Shown here: piece after piece, positions 4,484-63,352 of the stretch
How the letters are laid out: each line of letters begins with the position of its first letter
Position numbering within the stretch: the first letter of the stretch is position 1
Source of the DNA: Halogeometricum rufum
GTDB lineage: Archaea > Halobacteriota > Halobacteria > Halobacteriales > Haloferacaceae
DNA: 64,000 bases
Reading direction: 5' to 3'
Assembly: GCF_900112175.1 (NCBI RefSeq)
Contig: NZ_FOYT01000001.1
Coordinates: forward strand, 62,001 to 126,000
Translations under genes and position numbers: made by a program
The notes under the pieces: model-generated
The model's database searches: none
Told to the model about the DNA's origin: nothing
Seen by the model: only the letters and a program-made list of their open reading frames with translations

Positions 4484-4665
4484 AAGTCGAACTCACTACC
4501 CGCATATTTTAATTGGATAGCCGTCGAGGAGAAGAACTGCCAATTACGCAGAGATCACACCATCGATAACTACAAAGATAGATGAACTATCGTAAAATAT
4601 TTGTAATTTTCTAAATCGATGAATGTAAACCAGATATTTCACGACAGCTTGAAACTTCTTGCTCT
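3945..4665. other. AT-rich segment with sharp borders inside two genes
   Basis: Base composition drops abruptly near 3945, inside the surface-protein gene just after its signal peptide. It returns near 4665, inside the first membrane helix of the signal peptidase. In the counted stretch 4141-4200 only 23 of 60 bases are G or C, and in 4561-4620 only 15 of 60; the flanks are well above half. No transposase, integrase, tRNA or terminal repeat is visible. Borders inside conserved coding ends fit homologous replacement by DNA from a less GC-rich haloarchaeon. Confidence 0.75.
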
Positions 4666-5788
4666 CTGCTTGATACTCGCTCTCCTCGTCGGCGCCGCCC
4701 TCGGCCAACCAGTCCTCCTCGGCTACGTCGAAACCGGCTCCATGTCCCCGACGATGGAACCGGGCGACGGCTTCGTCGCCGTCCCCTCCGCCCTCACCGA
4801 CGAACCCGAGGCGGGCGACGTCGTCGTCTTCCGCGCGGAGGAGATACAGGGCGGCGGCCTGACCACCCACCGAATCGTCGGGGAGACGCCACAGGGATAC
4901 GTCACCAGAGGCGACGCGAACCCGTTCACCGACCAGGACGGCGACGAACCGCCGGTGAAAGAGGCGCAGATAGTCGCCGAGGCGTGGCAGGTGGGCGGGA
5001 ACGTCGTCGTGATTCCGCAGTTGGGCACCGCAGTGACGGGAATCCGCGGCGCCGTCGAGACGGTGCAACGGACCGTCTCCTCGCTACTGGGGACGCGCGC
5101 CCTCCTCGGCCCGCAGGGACTCGCGTACCTGTTCTTCGGCGCGACGGCCCTCTACTACCTCGTCGGCGAACTCCGCGGCGACGGGCGGGAGCGTCGGCGT
5201 CGGGAGACGAACCGCGACGGGGGTATCGACCCGCGCCTGTTCGCCCTCGGCTTCACCCTCCTCCTCGTCGGCGGCGCGACGGCGGCGATGGTCGGACCGG
5301 CGGGCACACAGCAGTACGGCGTCGTCAGCGCGGAGTTCGACTCCGAGCGACCGACGGTGATTCCGGCGGGCACGTCCGCGAACGTCACCTACGCCGTCGG
5401 CAACGGCGGGTCCGTCCCCGTCCACGTCTTCCTCGAACCCGCCAGCGAAGGCGTGGCCGTCCACCCCGAGGAACTGACCGTCGACGGCCGGCGCGTCGCC
5501 AACGCCACGGTGACGCTGTCGGCGCCGCCGCAGACGGGGTACTACCGCCGGTTCGTCACTGAACACCGCTACCTCGCGGTGCTTCCCCACTCCGTGACGG
5601 AGTCGCTCTACCGGGTCCACCCGTGGGCACCAATCGTCGCCATCGACGCTCTCCTCGGCGTGCCGTTCTACCTCCTCGCAGTCGCTCTCGTCGGCACTGG
5701 ACGAGTGCGGAGTCGGAGTCGGAACCGAGCGGTGCCGATGCGGCGGCGGATTCGACGGGCGGTGCGGGGCCTGTACGCCCGCGAGTGA
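4619..5788 (+). CDS. SipW-like signal peptidase I (S26B) with extracellular extension
   Basis: A 389-residue membrane peptidase. An N-terminal helix (about 10-30) precedes the S26B core: catalytic Ser41 in TGSMSPTM, His84 in LTTHRIVG and the RGDANPFTDQ block (Asp99, Asp105). The Ser-His pattern without a lysine is the ER/archaeal SipW type. Unlike a minimal peptidase, it continues with helices near 160-180 and 195-215, an outside domain (about 220-325) and a last helix near 340-360. It lies 135 bases after the second surface gene, with a TATA-like AAATATTTG about 20 bases before ATG 4619. It probably cleaves the neighbouring surface proteins. The extra domain may hold or present substrates; that is inference. 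Confidence 0.85.
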   Translation: MNVNQIFHDSLKLLALCLILALLVGAALGQPVLLGYVETGSMSPTMEPGDGFVAVPSALTDEPEAGDVVVFRAEEIQGGGLTTHRIVGETPQGYVTRGDANPFTDQDGDEPPVKEAQIVAEAWQVGGNVVVIPQLGTAVTGIRGAVETVQRTVSSLLGTRALLGPQGLAYLFFGATALYYLVGELRGDGRERRRRETNRDGGIDPRLFALGFTLLLVGGATAAMVGPAGTQQYGVVSAEFDSERPTVIPAGTSANVTYAVGNGGSVPVHVFLEPASEGVAVHPEELTVDGRRVANATVTLSAPPQTGYYRRFVTEHRYLAVLPHSVTESLYRVHPWAPIVAIDALLGVPFYLLAVALVGTGRVRSRSRNRAVPMRRRIRRAVRGLYARE

Positions 5789-41262: not shown

Positions 41263-43689
41263 ATGAGACCGGAGGACGTGCCCGGCTTACCCGAGGGGGT
41301 GCCCGAGCAGTTGCAGTCGGAGGGCATCGAGGAACTGTACCCCCCGCAGGCCGAGGCGGTGGAGGCGGGCGTGACGGAGGGCGAGAGCGTCCTCGCCTCC
41401 ATCCCGACGGCGTCCGGCAAGACGTTCGTCGCGGAGATGGCGATGCTGTCGAGCGTCCAGCGCGGCGGGAAGGCGCTCTACATCGTTCCCCTCCGCGCGC
41501 TGGCCTCCGAGAAGAAGGCCGAGTTCGAGCGCTGGGAGGAGTTCGGCGTCGACGTGGGCGTCTCCACCGGCAACTACGAGTCCAGCGGCGAGTGGCTCTC
41601 CTCGCGGGACGTCATCGTCGCCACCTCGGAGAAAGTGGACTCGCTCATCCGGAACAACGCGCCGTGGGTGAGCGAACTCTCCTGCGTCGTCGCCGACGAA
41701 GTCCACCTCGTCGACGACAGCCACCGCGGGCCCACTCTCGAAGTCACCCTCGGCAAACTCCGGAAGATAAACCCCGGCCTGCAGGTGGTCGCCCTCTCGG
41801 CCACCGTGGGCAACGCCGACGAGGTGGCCGAGTGGCTGGACGCCACCCTCGTCGAGTCCGACTGGCGGCCCATCGACCTGAAGATGGGCGTCCACTACGG
41901 CAACGCCGTCTCGTTCGACGACGGGAGTCAGCGGGAGGTGCCGGTTGGAAAGGGCGACCGGAAGACGAACGCCCTCGTCGCCGACGCGCTGGACGAGGGA
42001 GGGTCCTCGCTCGTCTTCGTCAACTCCCGGCGGAACGCCGAGGCGGCGGCGAAGCGACTGAAGGACGTGACCGCGCGGTATCTCACCCCCGAAGAGGAGG
42101 GGGAGTTGGCCGAACTCGCGGGGGAGATACGCGACGTCTCCGACACCGAGACGAGCGACACCCTCGCGAACTGCGTGGCGAAGGGCGCGGCGTTCCACCA
42201 CGCCGGACTCGCCGCCGACCACCGCAGTCTGGTCGAGGACGCCTTCCGCGACAGACTCGTGAAGACGGTGTCGGCGACGCCGACGCTGGCCGCCGGCGTG
42301 AACACGCCGAGTCGACGGGTCGTCGTCCGCGACTGGCAGCGCTACGACGGCGAGTTCGGCGGCATGAAACCGCTCGACGTGCTGGAGGTCCACCAGATGA
42401 TGGGACGGGCGGGCCGCCCCGGACTCGACCCCTACGGCGAGGCCGTCCTGTTGGCGAAGGACGCCGACACGCGCGACGAACTGTTCGAGCGGTACGTCTG
42501 GGCCGACCCCGAGCCCGTCCGCTCGAAACTGGCCGCCGAACCCGCCCTGCGGACGCACCTGCTCGCCACCGTCGCCTCCGGGTTCGCCCACACCCGCGAG
42601 GGACTGCTGGAGTTCCTCGACCGGACGCTGTACGCGACGCAGACGGACGAGCCCGGCCGACTCGAACGCGTCACCGACACCGTCCTCGACTACCTCGAAG
42701 CGAACGGTTTCGTCGAACGCGAGGACGGCACCGTGAGCGCGACGTCCGTCGGCCACACCGTCTCGCGACTCTACCTCGACCCGATGAGCGCGGCGGAGAT
42801 ACTCGACGGACTGGAGTGGGCCGCCGACCACCGCGAGGAGAGCCTGCGGAAACTCGAAGGCGTCGAGTCGGCCTCCGAACCCGCCGAATCGGGCGGCTTC
42901 CAGCGCGCGAGCGAGATGGTCGACGACGGAGACGGCGACGACGCGGGGTCGTTCGAGACGGACCGGACGTATCCGACCGCGCTCGGCCTGTTCCACCTCG
43001 TCTCGCGCACCCCGGACATGTACCAGCTCTACCTCAAATCCGGCGACAGAGAGACGTACACCGAGGAGTGCTACGAGCGCGAACCCGAGTTGCTCGGGAA
43101 GACGCCCTCGGAGTACGAGGACGTGCGCTTCGAGGAGTGGCTCTCCGCGCTGAAGACCGCCCGACTGCTCGAAGACTGGGCGAGCGAGGTGGACGAGGAC
43201 CGGATAACCGAACGCTACGGCGTCGGCCCCGGCGACATCAGAGGGAAGGTCGAGACGGCGCAGTGGTTGCTCGGCGCGGCGGAGCGACTCGCCGGGGAGT
43301 TGGACCGCGCTTCGACCGTCGCCGTCCGCGAGGCGAAAAAGCGCGTCGAGTACGGCGTCCGCGACGAACTGCTCGACCTCGCCGGGGTCCGCGGCGTCGG
43401 GCGGAAGCGGGCCCGCCGACTGTTCGAGGCCGGCATCGAGACGCGGAACGACCTGCGCGAGGCGGACAAGTCCGTCGTCCTCGCCGCGTTGCGGGGGCGA
43501 CGGAAGACGGCCGAGAACGTCCTCGAAGCCGCCGGCCGACGGGACCCCTCGATGGACGACGTGGACGAGGCCGAGGGCGTCTCCGACGCGACGTTCGAAC
43601 GGGCGAGCGGTCGGACCGACGGCGAACGGGACGAAGGCGACGACGCCGACGACCCGCAGGAACAGGCCAGTCTGGGTGATTTCGGGTGA
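41263..43689 (+). CDS. hel308: Hel308 DNA helicase
   Basis: An 808-residue Ski2-like 3'-5' helicase acting on stalled forks and recombination intermediates. Motif Q is YPPQ (26-29), Walker A is IPTASGKT (47-54), DEVH is at 145-148, motif III is SATVG, and motif VI is [10 protein letters not shown]. The ratchet and C-terminal helix-loop-helix domains follow ([20 protein letters not shown] near 705-725). The last residues QASLGDF (801-807) resemble a PCNA box, after an acidic tail. The start is ATG 41263, set by its TATA box. It overlaps cgi121 by four bases. Confidence 0.96.
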
Positions 43690-44174
43690 GGTTCGTCGAG
43701 GGCGTCGCGACCGTCGAGGAAGTGGACGCGTTCGTCGCCGCCGTGGGCGCAGTCGCCGACGAGACGGGCGCGACCGTGCAGGTGTTCGACGCGCGGTACG
43801 TCGTGAGCGAGACGCACCTCCGCCGCGCCGTCGAACTCGCGGACCGCGCCATCGAACGGGGCGAGAACGTCGCCCGCGACAGGGCGGTGGAGATTCTCTT
43901 GTACGCCGCCGGTCGGCGGCAGATAGACGACGCACTGGCGATGGGCGTCTCCGCGGGGGAGACGGCGGTGGTGGCAGTCGTGGACGGCGGCGACGAGAGC
44001 GAGGCGGCGGCGCGACTCCGTGACCTGTTCGCCCCGCGACAGACGCTCGGCCGGTACGACGAGGAACGCGTCCGCGAGTTCTTCGACGTGACCGACGCCG
44101 AACTCGCGACCGTCGACGGCGATATCGAGCGTCTCGTCTGCGAGCGGGTGGCGCTTCTGAACGTCGAGAAGTGA
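43686..44174 (+). CDS. cgi121: KEOPS subunit Cgi121
   Basis: A 162-residue protein of the KEOPS complex, which makes the t6A modification on tRNAs reading ANN codons. Cgi121 binds the CCA end of tRNA and contacts Bud32. Visible blocks are [40 protein letters not shown] and LAMG...VVAVVD. The length is normal. The start is GTG 43686, overlapping the hel308 stop (GTGA), so translation is coupled. hel308-cgi121 pairing is widespread in haloarchaea. Kae1-Bud32 and Pcc1 are not in the window. Confidence 0.92.
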
Positions 44175-44670
44175 GCGAACCCCTTCGTTTCGTGTGGAGA
44201 ATCCGAGCCGTCGCTCGCGGCCGATACCCCTTCGTTTCGACTGGAGAACGGGAGACTGCGCGTGTGTTCGGCGTCGAGACGAAACGCGAGGACGGCGACG
44301 CCGAACCGAACTGGGGATTACCGACTAACGGGAGCGGGGACTAAAACGATTCGAATCGAGAGCGCCGGTGGCGGTCCGACGGCGACCGGTTCGACGGTGA
44401 CCAGTTCGGCGGGGGTCGACGGTGTTCGCTTCGACGGCAGTCGACGTCGCGACCCGTCGGCTTGTATTCACAGTCAATACCCTACGTCGGCGGCGGCGGA
44501 ACGACCGGACGCCCCGTTGGACGGGGCCCCTCACGGCTCTGGAGGGTGATCCCCGCGTGTTCTCGTCCGCGGGCACTTCCGCGCCGGAGCGACCGGCGCA
44601 CGTGGCGACGCGCTTCTCACACCGGTTAGCCGGTCCATACTTGTATGGGAGACGCGAGTAGGTCGGCCCG
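44175..44670. other. intergenic region with a direct pair of Orc1-box-like sequences
   Basis: A 496-base gap with no convincing gene. CCCCTTCGTTTCGTGTGGAG lies at 44180-44199 and CCCCTTCGTTTCGACTGGAG at 44227-44246. They are in the same orientation, exactly 47 bases apart. By hand alignment they match the best origin box (58519-58538) at 18 and 17 of 20 positions. No AT-rich unwinding segment and no initiator gene adjoin. The rest is GC-rich spacer with repeated GTTCGACGGT-like words around 44388-44445. Confidence 0.7.
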
Positions 44671-53378: not shown

Positions 53379-54986
53379 TCAGGAGAACTTGCGGACGGTC
53401 ATGTCTAAGGTGTCGAGGTCCACGATGGGGGCGTAGCCCGAGTCGGGGTCGATGTTGACGGACTTCTGGAAGTCGGTCTGCGCCTGCCAGCACCCGGAGT
53501 TGACGGCGAGGACGTTGTGGTACTTCCCCCAGCCGAGTTTGTGGACGTGACCGGTGTGGAAGATGTCGGGCACCTCCTCCATGACGAGGTAGTCCTGCTT
53601 CTCGGGTGCGAGACGTGTGTGACCGCCGTACTGCGGGGCGACGTGCCGCTTCTTCAGCAGTTGGTACATCGCCTTGTGCGGGTCGTCGTAACTCGCCGAC
53701 TCGGCGGGGAGTTCGGCGATGACCTCGTCCAGGGAGACGCCGTGGTACATCAGCACGTTCACCCCTTCGAGGGTGACGGTGGAGGGGTTGCTGGTGATGC
53801 GCGCGTCGTGGACGTCCATGATGTCGCGGAGTTCCTCGTCGAAGCCGGGTTGAGGTTCCGCCAGTCGCACCGCGTCGTGGTTCCCCGGAATCATCACTAT
53901 CTCGATGTCACCCGGTACCTCCTTGAGGTGTTCCGAGAACTGCTCGTACTGGTCGTAGATGTCGACGATGTCCAACTCCTCGTCCTGATTCGGGTAGACG
54001 CCGACGCCCTCGACCATGTCGCCGGCGACGAGGAGGTACTCGACGCGTTCGGCCTCCTCGGTGTGGAGCCAGTCTGCGAAGCGGTGCCACGCGTCCGCCA
54101 TGAACTCCTGGCTGCCGACGTGGACGTCCGAGATGAGGGCGGCCTGCACGTGTCTGTCCGCCGTGTTCGGCCGGTACGTCCGCGGCACGTCGGGCCAATG
54201 CATCGAGTCGACGAACATGATGCCCGCGTCGTCCGATAGCGTTCCCTCGACGGCGATGCACTCGTCCATCAGGAGTTCGTCCACGCCGGCGGCGAAGTCG
54301 CGGTCCTTCATCACGAGACAGGGGAACGTCCCCGTCGTGTCCTCCAGTTCGACCAGCCAGTGACCGCTGGCGGTCGACCGGATGTCGTTGACGAGTCCGA
54401 CCATCGCGGCGTCGCTCCCGCCGGACATCGACTGGATGGCCTCGGCCGGCCGGTGGTTCACCCGGCCGCGGAGTTGCCGCGAGAGTTTCTCGTAGCGGTC
54501 CTTGAACACCTTCACGAAGTCGGCGTACTCGCCGGTCCCGGTACTCTGTCCGGTCATGTCGCCCGTGATGGACAGCGACCGGAGCGACGGGTCGGACCGA
54601 CGACCGCTCGGTGACTCCGTCGTTTCGGGTGGAGCTGAATCGGCCGCTGTTCCCTCGACTGCGGTCGAATCTCCAGTCGAAGTGGAGGGGTCTACGGAGG
54701 GTTCCGCAGAGGACTCTGTGGACGGGTCGCCGGCGGCGCGTTCGGAGGCGGCGGGCGAGTCGGGTGTGGAGACGGGCGCGTCGGTGGCGTTCGGGCCGCC
54801 GTCGAGGACGGCGCGGACGTCGTCGGCCGTGACGCGGAACGCGTCGGCACCGGCGTGTTCCACCGCCCGCGCGAGCGTCGTCTCGGGGTCGGCCGCGCCC
54901 GCGATGAGCGTCACGGCCTCCCGTTCGGCGTTGTAGCCGTGACGAGCGAGTTCGCGGACGACCAGCGTCGGCGTCTCCAGAGGCAC
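53379..54986 (-). CDS. polD1: DNA polymerase D small subunit (DP1)
   Basis: A 535-residue subunit with 3'-5' proofreading exonuclease of the archaeal replicative polymerase D. An N-terminal helical domain (about 1-60) is followed by a Ser/Thr/Asp-rich linker (about 65-150), the OB fold (about 195-265) and the calcineurin-like nuclease: ISDVHVG (Asp287, His289), AGDMVEG, PGNHD (Asn369, His370) and HTGHVHKLG. All metal ligands are present, so proofreading should be active. The start is GTG 54986. The gene's linker region contains two Orc1-box-like sequences. The large subunit is not in the window. Confidence 0.95.
   Translation of the reverse strand: MPLETPTLVVRELARHGYNAEREAVTLIAGAADPETTLARAVEHAGADAFRVTADDVRAVLDGGPNATDAPVSTPDSPAASERAAGDPSTESSAEPSVDPSTSTGDSTAVEGTAADSAPPETTESPSGRRSDPSLRSLSITGDMTGQSTGTGEYADFVKVFKDRYEKLSRQLRGRVNHRPAEAIQSMSGGSDAAMVGLVNDIRSTASGHWLVELEDTTGTFPCLVMKDRDFAAGVDELLMDECIAVEGTLSDDAGIMFVDSMHWPDVPRTYRPNTADRHVQAALISDVHVGSQEFMADAWHRFADWLHTEEAERVEYLLVAGDMVEGVGVYPNQDEELDIVDIYDQYEQFSEHLKEVPGDIEIVMIPGNHDAVRLAEPQPGFDEELRDIMDVHDARITSNPSTVTLEGVNVLMYHGVSLDEVIAELPAESASYDDPHKAMYQLLKKRHVAPQYGGHTRLAPEKQDYLVMEEVPDIFHTGHVHKLGWGKYHNVLAVNSGCWQAQTDFQKSVNIDPDSGYAPIVDLDTLDMTVRKFS
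54615..54690. other. inverted Orc1-box-like pair inside the polymerase D subunit gene
   Basis: CTCCGTCGTTTCGGGTGGAG (54615-54634) matches the origin box at 58519 at 17 of 20 positions. CTCCAGTCGAAGTGGAGGGG (54671-54690) matches the opposite-strand box at 58712 at 15 of 20. The left copy is in the C-run-first orientation and the right in the G-run-last orientation, the same arrangement as at the origin. They fall in the low-complexity linker of the protein, where coding constraint is weak. Chance is possible for the weaker copy. Confidence 0.4.
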
Positions 54987-56161: not shown

Positions 56162-57937
56162 TCAGTTGTCGAACCGGGCCTGTACGAACGGTTGCGCGTT
56201 CTCGATGTCGCCGAGGCGGGAGTCCGAGAGGAGGACCGCCTCCGTCTCGTCGATGGGGACCGACAGCGAGATTTCCTTCGTGCGACCGTAGCGACCCTTC
56301 GAGACGACGACGGCGTTGACGATGCCGAGCATGTCGAGTTCGGAGATGAGGTCCGTCACGCGGCGTTGCGTGAGGATGTCGGCGTCTATCTCCTCGCAGA
56401 GTCGCTTGTAGATGTTGAACACCTCGCCGGTGTTGATGTTGCGGACGCCGTTCTTCTCCAGGAGGATGATGGCGAAGAGGACTATTTTGGACTGCGTGGG
56501 GAGCGTTCGGACGACTTCGACGACGCGGTCCAACTCTATCTTGTCCTGCGCCTGCCGGACGTGCGCCTCCTCGACGGTGTCGGCCTGCCCGCGTTCGGCG
56601 AGTTCGCCCGCGGTTCTGAGCAGGTCGAGGGCGCGGCGCGCGTCGCCGTGTTCCTGCGCGGCGAAGGCGGCGCAGAGCGGAATCACGTCCTCGGTGAGTG
56701 CGCCCGATTTGAACGCCACGTCGGCGCGGTGCTGGAGGATGTCGCGGAGTTGGTTCGCGTCGTACGGCGGGAACACGATCTCCTCCTCGCCCAGACTGGA
56801 CTTCACGCGCGGGTCGAGGAAGTCGGTGAACTTCAGGTCGTTCGAGATGCCCATGATGGAGATGCGCGAGTTGTCCAACTCGGAGTTCATCCGCGAGAGG
56901 TTGTAGAGGGTGTCGTCGCCGGACTTCTCGACGAGTTTGTCTATCTCGTCCAGCATGATGACGACGACGCGTTCGTTGTAGTCGACGGCGTCGAAAAACG
57001 TCGAGTAGACGCGGTCGGTCGGCCACCCCGTCATCGGCACCGTCTCCATCTCCTCTCGGTCGGTCTCCAACTGGTCGATTCGCTCCTCGACGTCCGACAG
57101 CGAGTCGAACGCGGTGTCCGCCAGCAGGTCCGGCGTCTCTCGCGCACGCGTGCGAAGGTCTTCCAGACGGTCGAGTTCGTCCTCGATGACGCCGAAGTTC
57201 TTCTCGATGAACTTGTTGGCCAGTTGGGCGAGGACACGGTACTGGGTGTCCGTCACCTCGCAGTTGATGTACTCGACTTCGCAGGGGACGTCGTACTTCT
57301 GGGAGGTCGACTCCAGTTCCTGACTGACGAACTTCGCACTCGCCGTCTTCCCCGTCCCCGTCTTCCCGTAGATGAGGATGTTCGACGGCGTCTCCCCGCG
57401 GAGGGCGGAGACGAGAATCGTCGCCATCTGATTTATCTGCTCGGTTCGGTGGGGGAGTTCGTGCGGCGTGTACGACGGGCGCAGGACCTCCTTGTTCTCG
57501 AAGATGGGTTCACCCGAGAGCAGGTCGTCGAACAGGCCGCGACTGTCGCTGCCGCCCTCGTCGAGGACGACTTCGTCGAGACTCACGTCCGTCGACGGGT
57601 CGTCCGCCACCTCGTCGTCGGCCCCACTCGGTCCGATACTCTCCTGGATGTCGATGTCCTCGGCGGTGACCGGGTCGTCCCCCGCGTCGTCGCTTACCGG
57701 TCCGTCGCTCTCCGCGTCGTCGTCCGTCGTCCCCCCGCTCTCCGCGTCGGCCCCTCGGTCGTCGTCCGCGACGGTACCGTCGTCACCGACGCGTTCGCCG
57801 TCGCTCTCGCCGTCGGCGTCGGACGAGGCGGAGGCGGACGACTCGCGGCCGTCGCCGGACGGAGCGTCGTCGGCCGTCGAGTGATTCGTCCGCCCTTCGC
57901 CGTCGTCGTCGTCGCGTCTCGATGTATCGTCGTCCAT
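56162..57937 (-). CDS. orc1: Orc1/Cdc6 replication initiator
   Basis: A 591-residue AAA+ initiator that binds Orc1 boxes and loads the MCM helicase. The first 130 residues are disordered and extremely acidic. Walker A is GKTGTGKT (191-198), Walker B is IMLDEID (327-333), and sensor I and II regions are ISNDLKF and EHGDARRALDLLR. A predicted coiled-coil insert (about 246-302, DELDRLEDLRTRARETPDLL) splits the AAA+ core where other Orc1 proteins have a short loop. The C-terminal winged helix (about 495-585) contacts DNA. The start is ATG 57937, next to the putative origin. Orc1 of this type usually serves the adjacent origin. Confidence 0.97.
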   Translation of the reverse strand: MDDDTSRRDDDDGEGRTNHSTADDAPSGDGRESSASASSDADGESDGERVGDDGTVADDDRGADAESGGTTDDDAESDGPVSDDAGDDPVTAEDIDIQESIGPSGADDEVADDPSTDVSLDEVVLDEGGSDSRGLFDDLLSGEPIFENKEVLRPSYTPHELPHRTEQINQMATILVSALRGETPSNILIYGKTGTGKTASAKFVSQELESTSQKYDVPCEVEYINCEVTDTQYRVLAQLANKFIEKNFGVIEDELDRLEDLRTRARETPDLLADTAFDSLSDVEERIDQLETDREEMETVPMTGWPTDRVYSTFFDAVDYNERVVVIMLDEIDKLVEKSGDDTLYNLSRMNSELDNSRISIMGISNDLKFTDFLDPRVKSSLGEEEIVFPPYDANQLRDILQHRADVAFKSGALTEDVIPLCAAFAAQEHGDARRALDLLRTAGELAERGQADTVEEAHVRQAQDKIELDRVVEVVRTLPTQSKIVLFAIILLEKNGVRNINTGEVFNIYKRLCEEIDADILTQRRVTDLISELDMLGIVNAVVVSKGRYGRTKEISLSVPIDETEAVLLSDSRLGDIENAQPFVQARFDN

Positions 57938-57994
57938 GCGTGAATCCCCCCTATTTCGACTGGAAGACGCTCCGTCAGCGGCCCGCAACCGGCA

Positions 57995-58020
57995 GAATGC
58001 CGCGTGAAACTGCGGCATTC
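57995..58020. promoter_or_regulatory. inverted repeat upstream of orc1
   Basis: GAATGCCGC (57995-58003) and GCGGCATTC (58012-58020) are perfect 9-base arms around an 8-base spacer GTGAAACT. It lies 58 bases before the orc1 start codon. This is where a 5' leader hairpin or a regulator site would be. The weaker Orc1 box at 57946 is between it and the gene, so autoregulation by Orc1 is conceivable. Confidence 0.5.
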
Positions 58021-58518
58021 GGTGAGAAGGCCGACGGTGGAACGTCCAGATGATGCAGACGAACCAGACGAACAGGTGCTACAAAAAACTTGTCTATCAG
58101 TAGCCCCGTGTCCGTCGGTGAGTCCCCAGAAGTACCGGTGCTAAATACAAGGACACTAGTAGAATATAGTGATTCGAGCCGATGTATGAGGCTATACGGA
58201 CGAAACGGCGGGGTTCGTCGAATCGACCCGTGACCGAATAGAGAGAAAGCGTCGTCGTCGCGAGAACGAGTCGTTCTTTTGCGGTCACGTCCTTCCCCTC
58301 CGGTCACGTCCTCTACGTGGCAGTTTGGCGACACGAAGAGGCGTCGCAGAACTCGGGTACGGGCGCGTTCGACTGGAAGTCGGGGGATGGCCGTCGACGA
58401 AGGGGACCGTTTCGGGTGAAGTCACTCCACTATACCCTCTCGAATCGGACGATACAGGGGATTTCACGGGGGCACGGGTCGTCTGGACTCGAAGTCGAGG
58501 GGAGTGGCACCTCCCCCA

Positions 58519-58538
58519 CCCCTTCGTTTCGGGTGGAA
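58519..58538 (-). repeat. Orc1 recognition box, left
   Basis: CCCCTTCGTTTCGGGTGGAA, preceded by CTCCCCCA and followed at 58547-58560 by a run of G residues. Read on the minus strand it is TTCCACCCGAAACGAAGGGG with a G-run, matching the haloarchaeal origin recognition box pattern as I know it. It is oriented opposite to the box at 58712. Confidence 0.85.
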
Positions 58539-58585
58539 CGGTCGAGACGGGGGGAGGGGGGTCGCGCCGACTTCTTCGAAGCGGG

Positions 58586-58675
58586 AGTTTTATGTATATA
58601 TACATTCAACGATACCCGTAGTAGAGAAAAAGCGATTATTTCTACTCTGTCTCTGCTGTATTAACCTAGTGCTAG
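58586..58675. other. AT-rich duplex-unwinding segment
   Basis: The strongest AT-rich part of the region lies between the two boxes. It includes the perfect 12-base palindrome TGTATATATACA at 58593-58604, AGAAAAAGCGATTATTTC and CCTAGTGCTAGG at 58664-58675. It sits in otherwise very GC-rich DNA, as expected for the site where strands first open. Confidence 0.75.
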
Positions 58676-58711
58676 GCTCGGCTCGCGTCCCTCCGGGGGC
58701 TTCCCGACGAG

Positions 58712-58731
58712 TTCCACTCGAAACGAAGGGG
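58712..58731 (+). repeat. Orc1 recognition box, right
   Basis: TTCCACTCGAAACGAAGGGG followed directly by TGGGGGTGTG. Inverted, it equals the left box at 19 of 20 positions. Core plus G-string is the haloarchaeal box layout. The two boxes are 173 bases apart. Confidence 0.88.
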
Positions 58732-59190
58732 TGGGGGTGTGTCGGAGGTGATGGTGGGACGAGACGACACGGAGGGACAACACGGAGGGACGGCAGAGGG
58801 AGACGGCGCGGAGAGAGGACGTTGGGTCGGCGTTCTGGGAGGCAGTCAGTCGTTCGAATCGAAACGGAGGGTAGTACCGCCGGGATACCGGGTGGGGGAA
58901 CGACTATGCGAGCGAAGCGGCTGGAGGGGAGCGTCGAACGCGAAGCGAACGTCAGTCAGGACCGATGGGACCGTGAAGACCAGCGACGCGGCGAGTCGTC
59001 GGGAGCCGGCCGCAACTGTCCGCTCTCGGCGGACCTCGGTCGTCGTGTACGTCGATGTTAATCTCGGTTCGGTCGGATAAAGCAGAGGTAAATGTGACCG
59101 GCGTCTGACGTAGTGCTTAAGTTAGTTCAGAAATGTGGGTACTTCATACGCCCCTCCGCGATGATAAGTCGGGAGGTGCGGGAGGACAGG

Positions 59191-59832
59191 ATGGGACTGC
59201 TCACAGAACTTAGAGACAGCATCTCACGGGTCGTCGACCGGATGTTCTCGGACGCAGAGCCGAGACGAATCGGCATCTACGGACCGCCGAACGCCGGAAA
59301 GACGACCCTCGCAAACCGTATCGCCCGTGACTGGACCGGTGACGCCATCGGCCCCGAGAGCCACATCCCGCACGAGACGCGTCGCGCGCGCCGAAAGGAG
59401 AACGTGGAGATAGAGCGCAACGGGAAGAAAGTCACCATCGACATCGTCGACACGCCGGGGGTCACGACGAAAGTCGATTACAAAGAGTTCCTCGACCACG
59501 ACATGCAGAAAGACGACGCCGTCCGTCGGTCCCGTGAGGCCACGGAGGGCGTCGCCGAAGCGATGCACTGGCTTCGCGAAGACGTCGACGGCGTCATCTA
59601 CGTGCTCGACAGCACCGAAGACCCGTTCACGCAGGTCAACACGATGCTCATCGGCATCATCGAAAGTCAGGACCTGCCCGTACTCATCTTCGCGAACAAG
59701 ACCGACCTGGAGGAGTCGAACGTCCAGCGCATCTCGAACGCGTTCCCCCAGCACGAAACGGTGCCGCTCTCGGCACTCGAAGGAAACAACATGGACGAAG
59801 TGTACGACAAGATAGCGGAGTACTTTGGGTGA
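59191..59832 (+). CDS. oapA: origin-associated GTPase OapA (Era-like)
   Basis: A 213-residue small GTPase. G1 is GPPNAGKT (31-38), G3 is DTPG (87-90) and G4 is NKTD (169-172). The effector region between is RARRKENVEIERNGKKVTID. There is no KH domain, unlike true Era. The start is ATG 59191 with GGAGG six to ten bases upstream; ATG 59161 also has a ribosome site and would add ten residues. It overlaps the next gene by four bases. Origin-linked genes of this set are called oap in haloarchaea; the cellular role is unclear. Confidence 0.88.
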   Translation: MGLLTELRDSISRVVDRMFSDAEPRRIGIYGPPNAGKTTLANRIARDWTGDAIGPESHIPHETRRARRKENVEIERNGKKVTIDIVDTPGVTTKVDYKEFLDHDMQKDDAVRRSREATEGVAEAMHWLREDVDGVIYVLDSTEDPFTQVNTMLIGIIESQDLPVLIFANKTDLEESNVQRISNAFPQHETVPLSALEGNNMDEVYDKIAEYFG

Positions 59833-60218
59833 GTACCGTGCCTGAAGTCACATCCGGCGACGACGGGGTGCAGATTGACCTCATCAGTGCCGCCCGCATG
59901 GAAGGGCTGGCCAGCATGGAGAAGATCCGTCTCATCCTCGACGGCGTCCGCGACGGGAACATCGTCATCCTCGAAGAGGGACTCTCGCCGGACGAGGAGT
60001 CGAAACTCATCGAAGTGACGATGACGGAGATAAGCCCCGACGAGTTCAACGGAATCGAAATCGAGACCTATCCGCAGTCGAAGGGCGGGCAGGGCTTCCT
60101 CGGCCGACTGATGGGCAAAGAGGACACCAAGAAGCTCACCGTCATCGGCCCGGCCAACCAGATTCAGACGCTCCACAAGGACGAGAACCTCATCAGCGCG
60201 CTCGTCTCGCGGAAGTAG
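59829..60218 (+). CDS. oapB: origin-associated protein OapB (DUF2073)
   Basis: A 129-residue protein of the DUF2073 family. Blocks are QIDLISAARMEGLASMEKIR, LILDGVRDGNIVILEEGLSP and the C-terminal LTVIGPANQIQTLHKDENLI. The start is GTG 59829, overlapping the oapA stop (GTGA), so translation is coupled. It probably works with OapA as a regulator or partner. No enzymatic motif is seen. The oapA-oapB-oapC order beside orc1 is conserved in haloarchaea as far as I recall. Confidence 0.88.
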   Translation: MSTVPEVTSGDDGVQIDLISAARMEGLASMEKIRLILDGVRDGNIVILEEGLSPDEESKLIEVTMTEISPDEFNGIEIETYPQSKGGQGFLGRLMGKEDTKKLTVIGPANQIQTLHKDENLISALVSRK

Positions 60219-60351: not shown

Positions 60352-61482
60352 ATGCCCCACCAATGTACGAACTGCGGGAGGGTGTTCGCCGACGGCTCGA
60401 AAGAGATGCTGTCGGGGTGCCCCAACTGCGGCGGGAACAAGTTCCAGTTCAGCCCCTCGGGCTCCGGGAGCGACGCCGCCGCGTCCACCACCGACAGCCG
60501 AACGGCGTCGTCCGACGCGACGCCGTCGTCGGGGCGCGCCGCCGACGCCGATGCGGACACCGACACCGCCACCACTGACCGAGAATCCGCCGACGACGAC
60601 GCGGGTTCGACGACGTGGAGGCGCGCCGCCTCGCGGGCGGCCGACGCCGTCGACCCGCGTTCCGGGAGCCGACGGTCGGACTCCGGCGACGACGACGGCG
60701 GGCGACCCGACGCACCCGGACGCGACACCCAGAACCGACAGACGGACAGCTCGAACGACCTCGACGACGCTCGCCGCCGCGGGCAGTCGCTCCGTGAGTG
60801 GGCGAACTCGCGCGGCTTCGCGAGCGAAGTCGAAGGCGCGGACGACGAGACGACGCTCCGTGAGAACCGGCGGCGGACCGGCGACGCGCAACGACGCCCG
60901 CCGGAACGACGGCCGGAGCCCGAGTCGTCGCCGTCTCCGAACGCGTCCGAGTCGTCGCCGTCTCCGAACGCGTCCGAGTCGCCGCCCGACTCGGCACCGA
61001 CTTCCGACACCTCGACGGCGTCGCCCGATACGGCACCGACGCCGTCCGAGTCGTCGGCACCGTCTGAACCGTCCACGACGCCGTCCGACACACCGCCGAC
61101 GCCGTCCGACACCCCCACCGATACGTCTACGGACGAACCGTCGGTGTTCGGCGACGAGGTGGAGGACGACGCGCAGGCGAGCGCACGGTCGGACGTGGTG
61201 TCGCCGGACGAGATTCGCGCGGCGTCGGAGAACGCCGACGACAGACCCTCGGACGCGGACGGCCGGGTCATCGAACCGCAGAGCGACGACCGCCCGGACC
61301 TCGACGAACTCCGCGAGGAACTGAACGACCAGTTCGAGAGCATCAAAATCGTCGCGCCGGGCGAGTACGAACTCAACCTGATGGAACTGTACGACCGACC
61401 CGAGTACATCATCTCGCTCCGCGAAGACGGCCGGTACGTCATCGAAGTGCCGGACACCTGGGACAGCCACGACGACCGCTGA
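60352..61482 (+). CDS. oapC: origin-associated zinc-ribbon protein OapC
   Basis: A 376-residue protein. An N-terminal zinc ribbon, CTNCGRVF and GCPNCGGNKF (about 5-31), is followed by a very long Ser/Thr/Asp/Pro-rich disordered linker (about 35-290). A C-terminal domain of about 70 residues ends it: DLDELREELNDQFESIKIVA, then PGEYELNLMELYDRPEYIIS. The linker holds a 27-base tandem repeat. It lies 133 bases after oapB. Such a ribbon-linker-domain layout suggests nucleic-acid or protein binding at both ends. Confidence 0.85.
   Translation: MPHQCTNCGRVFADGSKEMLSGCPNCGGNKFQFSPSGSGSDAAASTTDSRTASSDATPSSGRAADADADTDTATTDRESADDDAGSTTWRRAASRAADAVDPRSGSRRSDSGDDDGGRPDAPGRDTQNRQTDSSNDLDDARRRGQSLREWANSRGFASEVEGADDETTLRENRRRTGDAQRRPPERRPEPESSPSPNASESSPSPNASESPPDSAPTSDTSTASPDTAPTPSESSAPSEPSTTPSDTPPTPSDTPTDTSTDEPSVFGDEVEDDAQASARSDVVSPDEIRAASENADDRPSDADGRVIEPQSDDRPDLDELREELNDQFESIKIVAPGEYELNLMELYDRPEYIISLREDGRYVIEVPDTWDSHDDR
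60922..60975 (+). repeat. 27-base tandem duplication in oapC
   Basis: Two exact copies of a 27-base unit (60922-60948 and 60949-60975), each coding for ESSPSPNAS, lie in the disordered linker. The reading frame is kept. The next nine bases begin a partial third copy. This shows recent slippage in a region that tolerates length change. Confidence 0.85.
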
Positions 61483-61642
61483 TTCGTCGCAGTCGCGGTC
61501 ACGCGGTCGATTCCCCCCATCCATTCCCATCCCACCGACTTCCGCGCTCCCGTTCTTCTTCTCCCCGGTTTCGCTCCCGCCGCCTCTCCGGTTCGTTTCG
61601 ACTCCTGCGCTCGTTTCGACTTCCCCGCTTTTCGCCGCGTTA

Positions 61643-61662
61643 CCCCTTCGTTTCCACTCGAA
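61643..61662 (-). repeat. single Orc1-box-like sequence before the MATE gene
   Basis: CCCCTTCGTTTCCACTCGAA lies in the 290-base gap between oapC and the MATE gene. Its CCCCTTCGTTTC half equals the main boxes, while the inner half is the inverse variant (16 of 20 positions overall). Several shorter TCGTTTCGACT words precede it at 61591-61625. No gene is seen in the gap. Confidence 0.5.
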
Positions 61663-63242: not shown

Positions 63243-63332
63243 GCGACGCCCCGACGGACCGGACCGACGCGGCCAACCGACCGCCGGTTCCGGCGTCGAC
63301 TCTCCGCGTTCGGGCCGTCTGCGCCCCGCGAA

Positions 63333-63352
63333 CCCCTCCGTTTCCACTCGAA
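63333..63352 (-). repeat. single Orc1-box-like sequence after the MATE gene
   Basis: CCCCTCCGTTTCCACTCGAA, one base different from the copy at 61643 (T to C at position 6). The two copies flank the MATE gene in the same orientation. It lies in the 207-base spacer before the small membrane gene at 63450. Confidence 0.45.

Follow-up and report, generated by a model that had tools for sequence, protein, structure and literature searches.

Here, we describe a haloarchaeal replication origin that is accompanied by a field of outlying Orc1 boxes. The element at 57.9-59.1 kb of the window (the 64,000 nucleotides analysed, i.e., positions 62001-126000 of the 1,866,272-bp contig C1 in a genome of 4.19 Mb in seven contigs) is almost certainly oriC1, the already known and conserved main origin of haloarchaea. 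The new aspect is the set of satellite boxes beyond it, outside the interval considered in a previous sequence-only reading of this DNA; oriC1 itself is of a known kind. Taken as a whole, the statement that oriC1 is combined with dispersed, non-initiating Orc1 sites that most likely serve as an initiator sink has, in our judgement, even chances of being correct. Its extension to the class, in which Halobacteria would generally carry, near the origin, non-initiating Orc1 sites without G-string in fixed gene contexts and in the gene for the small subunit of PolD (DP1) and thereby set oriC1 firing via replication-coupled titration, is plausible but more tentative.

The core has the layout that the sequence-only reading had recognized. 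Two inverted ORBs, at 58518-58538 on the minus strand (35.0 bits) and at 58712-58732 on the plus strand (36.9 bits, the top score on the contig), agree at 19 of 20 positions when 58519-58538 (CCCCTTCGTTTCGGGTGGAA) is compared with the reverse complement of 58712-58731, as had been claimed. The G-runs reported next to the boxes are likewise present as extended G-strings, at 58510-58517 on the left (G on the minus strand, with CCCCC at 58513-58517) and at 58733-58737 on the right (GGGGG, plus strand), and the identity of the pair continues outward past the G-string to give CCCCCACCCCTTCGTTTCG. An AT-rich core at 58588-58671 (the best 60-bp segment of the inter-ORB DNA reaches 70% AT) is the candidate unwinding element. 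The 100-bp stretch from 58571 contains 63% AT. This value agrees with the claim that AT content in this part of the window is highest between the boxes, and within the window it is exceeded only by a region at about 4.5 kb. This latter region (4500-4680) has the highest AT content of the entire window, up to 71% per 100 bp. As read from the sequence, the G-rich inner repeat has an intact left half (58549-58561, plus strand) but no intact right half. The additional weak boxes proposed toward orc1 and oapA stood only in part: the plus-strand box at 58853-58873 on the oapA side is a degenerate ORB of fair quality (16/20, 18.6 bits), but the candidates at 58194 (10.7 bits) and 57946 (15/20, below 8 bits with the ORB matrix) are poor.

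Skew, relatives and initiator all support the assignment of this layout to an origin of the oriC1 type. On contig C1, where the boxes span 120519-120731, cumulative GC skew turns at 121272 and keto skew at 121194, placing both maxima 0.5-0.8 kb to the right of the ORB pair; the detrended maxima are at 122123 (GC) and 121200 (keto). The skew measures are not all concordant to the kilobase, because purine skew peaks at 143903. The inverted pair is retained in all four same-genus relatives (G001-G004), with a spacing of 205-206 bp as compared to 202 bp here, and also in most of 80 named loci; the commonest spacing class among relatives is 201-206 bp, in a range from 187 to more than 300 bp. Two outcomes that the sequence-only reading had named as refuting, a missing skew turn and loss of both boxes in close relatives, are not observed. 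As had been noted, orc1 (56162-57937, minus strand) and the oap genes (59.1-61.5 kb, plus strand) lie on either side. The orc1 product (NF001625, 649.7 bits, cutoff 501) has Cdc6 homolog 1 as its best solved relative (chain 2qby_A, E 1.5e-106), i.e., it is an Orc1-1/Cdc6-1 initiator, the type associated with oriC1. The locus thus combines an adjacent orc1 of the oriC1 type, inverted ORBs with G-strings, AT-rich DNA between them, a conserved neighbourhood and a skew turn.

Right of the origin, oapA (59194-59832, plus strand, exact start uncertain) encodes a small GTPase with the small GTP-binding domain TIGR00231 and belongs by synteny to the ArvA family. It is followed by oapB (59829-60218, plus strand; ArvB family by synteny), which is 98% identical to oapB of Halogeometricum limi, in line with a Halogeometricum-like organism, and occurs as a single copy beside oriC1 in nearly all genomes searched, and by oapC (60352-61482, plus strand), an open reading frame without NCBIfam match that is assigned to the ArvC family by synteny and position. 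The oap genes are not necessarily replication genes, because OapA, now called ArvA, is reported to be a GTPase that drives the formation of extracellular vesicles in Haloferax volcanii, and OapB and OapC correspond to ArvB and ArvC (PMC10927574).

The region varies among other genomes. In G017 and G059 (genus g14), about 10-13 kb separate the oap genes from the ORB pair, which breaks the order orc1-origin-oapA, and in G059 the ORB-bearing DP1 gene is about 40 kb away from the pair. In the oriC1 intergenic region of G051 only two boxes match the strict pattern, both on the minus strand and without G-string; the main pair of this genome has therefore diverged from the strict pattern. The present genome additionally encodes a diverged Orc1/Cdc6 paralogue of 407 aa (C1:308644-309711, about 31% identical), which all four same-genus relatives share and which has no strong oriC1-type ORB adjoining it on the contig.

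On the 1.87-Mb contig, the ORB matrix detected 16 sites of at least 18 bits, of which 11 are no more than 25 kb away from the origin; a Markov-1 control of the same length contained one site of at least 15 bits. Eight strong ORBs (29-36 bits) lie outside the origin. Four of these are in the window, at 44179, 44226, 61642 and 63332, and had been missing from the sequence-only reading. The two on the left follow cgi121, which encodes a KEOPS subunit (43686-44174, plus strand; NF011465, 190.4 bits, cutoff 40): one at 44179-44199 (minus strand, 34.3 bits), 5 bp 3' of the gene, and a second at 44226-44246 (minus strand, 35.6 bits), a pair also found in G002 and G003. The two on the right are located 3' of oapC (61642-61662, minus strand, 33.9 bits) and 3' of a MATE gene (63332-63352, minus strand, 32.4 bits). 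None of the four has a G-string. Beyond the window, C1:129105 and C1:140851 are about 8 and 20 kb to the right of the origin, so that six of the eight strong non-origin ORBs are within 21 kb of oriC1 (binomial P ~4e-9). The other two are minus-strand boxes at C1:233835 (113 kb from oriC1) and C1:287012 (166 kb), and the matrix found no further ORB of 29-36 bits in the remaining 1.58 Mb of the contig. The ORB matrix was applied to C1, and exact patterns alone to contigs C2-C7; the first exact pattern, TTCSASTSGAAACGRAGGGG, was overly strict and returned three sites.

Satellites of this kind are widespread in haloarchaea. A search for the 13-base core GAAACGRAGGGGT in 60 genomes of the family and two further genomes of the genus gave 281 matches in 55 haloarchaeal genomes; the reversed-pattern control gave about four in total. 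By distance from oriC1, 88 matches were closer than 0.8 kb, 97 were between 0.8 and 25 kb (44 at 0.8-5 kb, 20 at 5-10 kb and 33 at 10-25 kb), 15 were at 25-50 kb, 17 at 50-100 kb and 27 beyond 100 kb on the same contig, and 37 were on other contigs, although some of the far matches are artefacts of circles cut near the origin (e.g., G019 and G042). Applied across the class, a longer pattern matched 67 of 69 genomes and showed satellites in several further families; under the strict pattern, satellites are scarce or absent in several genomes. Satellite anatomy was counted in regions of about 40 kb from 21 genomes (20 relatives and this genome). The 66 satellites in these regions invariably carry T at -7 and A at -4, neither of which was specified in the search pattern, and are thus true ORBs. 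The reversed-pattern control, the Markov controls and these invariant positions together rule out a chance origin, and a mobile repeat was rejected as the sequence outside the box differs between copies.

A single sequence feature separates the two kinds of boxes. The G-string (defined as five or six G among the six bases that follow GGGGT) is present in 37 of 44 origin boxes versus 1 of 66 satellites in the 40-kb regions, and in 107 of 125 versus 2 of 56 in the 80 named loci, two sets that overlap in species and are therefore not independent. The surroundings of satellites have an AT fraction of 0.48, compared to 0.50 for random intergenic DNA and 0.65 for the origin. These features bear on the proposal that satellites are back-up or dispersed initiation sites that form an initiation zone with oriC1. 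Their ORB is identical in kind to that of the origin, and several genera carry an inverted pair within DP1, which both count in its favour. However, satellites have neither a G-string nor AT-rich DNA nearby, and the boxes of the DP1 pairs are 62-65 bp apart instead of about 200 bp as at oriC1, which makes this proposal highly improbable. For the same reasons, i.e., the missing G-string, the missing AT-rich DNA and the DP1 spacing, we infer that Orc1 binds satellites without initiating replication.

The positions of satellites 3' of cgi121, 3' of oapC and within DP1 recur across genera. Genes were predicted from codon usage with a simple caller, and reciprocal best hits served to cluster them. 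On this basis, an ORB follows cgi121 at 5-116 bp in 10 of 13 genomes, invariably in one orientation relative to the gene, and it is retained in two genomes in which cgi121 has moved across the origin, about 16 kb away on the other side. The site 3' of oapC is occupied in 9 of 20 genomes. Location directly 3' of many genes, together with the single orientation at cgi121, could indicate transcription-control or terminator sites of the neighbouring genes. Yet none of the 44 intergenic satellites (among 49 outside DP1) lies between divergent genes, although such gaps account for 37% of intergenic bases, a comparison that ignores shared ancestry, and 12 of the 21 genomes have intragenic sites in DP1. 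Confinement to the origin region would furthermore be unexpected for a general terminator. Terminators or promoters were on these grounds rejected as the main explanation, and we regard a role in transcription of neighbouring genes as very unlikely.

The DP1 gene of the window (53379-54986, minus strand; NF003116, 988.5 bits, cutoff 425) carries a decayed version of the intragenic pair, with a degenerate ORB in a linker at 54614-54634 (minus strand, 19.4 bits) and its degenerate inverted partner at 54671-54691 (plus strand, 19.6 bits). Intact counterparts are found in this variable linker in 12 of 21 genomes, in one or both orientations, and G020, G029, G030, G049 and G060 have the intact inverted pair, 62-65 bp apart. 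The peptide PxET[EK]G encoded by the box occurs 35 times among 84 DP1 genes, in every case with the codons CCA, GAA and GGG at the fixed positions; within their codon families these three have a usage of 11%, 33% and 24%. In the opposite orientation, valine is encoded by GTT in 31 of 31 valine cases versus a usage of 9%. These invariant rare codons exclude conservation of the peptide at the protein level alone and point to selection on the DNA.

Such preservation also bears on the simplest reading, namely that this is a plain oriC1 and that the outside boxes are relics of former origin copies or chance occurrences without present function. Single boxes do turn over, as illustrated by the decayed DP1 pair of this genome and by several genomes that lack given sites. 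But the reversed control and the invariant positions outside the pattern exclude chance, and in relics one would hardly expect all 35 cases, across families, to retain the rare codons, or place and orientation beside cgi121 to survive relocation. We consider functionless boxes distinctly unlikely.

Retention of the initiator's own site outside the origin most likely reflects initiator titration. By homology to tested haloarchaeal oriC1, Orc1 from the adjacent gene would bind the two inverted ORBs with G-strings, the AT-rich DNA between them would open, and the helicase would then be loaded. This Orc1 most likely also binds the single satellite ORBs, but without starting replication there. Being close to the origin, the satellites would double in number right after firing, and would therefore take up free Orc1 and dampen immediate re-initiation. 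The sink may be a modest one, as about six satellites face two origin boxes, if many chromosome copies are present. In addition, the fixed placement 3' of cgi121 and inside DP1 exceeds the needs of a simple titration model, and the titration reported in PMC3936714 concerns oriC2, not oriC1, and works through 11 ORBs packed into a single cluster, in contrast to the isolated, scattered boxes here.

The main rival explanation is that satellites organise or segregate the origin region, either in a parS-like manner or as an Orc1-nucleated nucleoid domain, and do not act on initiator dosage. Satellite density declines with distance from the origin, and satellites are conserved, single and mostly located outside promoters, all of which would fit such a role, as would the statement in PMC3936714 that Cdc6A is vital outside oriC1 initiation in H. 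hispanica. We nevertheless consider this explanation unlikely, as the analysis revealed neither a partition partner nor a known bridging activity of archaeal Orc1, and satellites are otherwise identical to the site of the initiator.

Control of initiation at the ancestral origin of archaea is poorly understood, and the satellite set offers a concrete target for its study. Dispersed satellites at oriC1 and ChIP data for haloarchaeal Orc1 were both not found in the open-access PMC papers searched. ORB scans alone overcall origins; presence of the G-string is a sequence criterion by which origin boxes can be told from satellites. The ORB retained inside the PolD small-subunit gene moreover joins two replication components in one DNA element. 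In bacteria, datA and clusters of DnaA boxes take up initiator and dampen re-initiation, with datA also requiring other factors. The satellites resemble these bacterial elements in being initiator sites off the origin with conserved placement (PMC5010248), but the initiator is different, there is no homology, and for the satellites the resemblance is one of anatomy.

Within haloarchaea, oriC1 of Halobacterium, Haloferax and Haloarcula hispanica, as described in the available portions of PMC3528665 and PMC3936714, shares with the present locus the orc1/oapA flanks and conserved neighbours, the inverted ORBs with extended G-strings and the AT-rich core; relative to these descriptions, the satellite boxes are an additional feature here. 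Mutation of either G-string is reported to abolish the ARS activity of oriC1 (PMC3936714). With its right half not intact, the inner G-rich repeat here resembles that of Halogeometricum borinquense, of which the same study reports just one half. The principle of titration is not new, because this study also reports that oriC2D of Haloarcula hispanica, an ORB-rich negative regulator of oriC2, titrates Cdc6E, and mentions that ORBs follow many other ori-cdc6 regions downstream. Like the satellites, oriC2D provides extra, themselves non-replicating ORBs near an origin for which initiator titration is proposed. It is, however, one intergenic region of 722 bp with 11 ORBs for Cdc6E. No such dense cluster lies directly downstream of cdc6 here; the satellites are instead single or paired boxes distributed over tens of kilobases around oriC1, some of them inside a gene.
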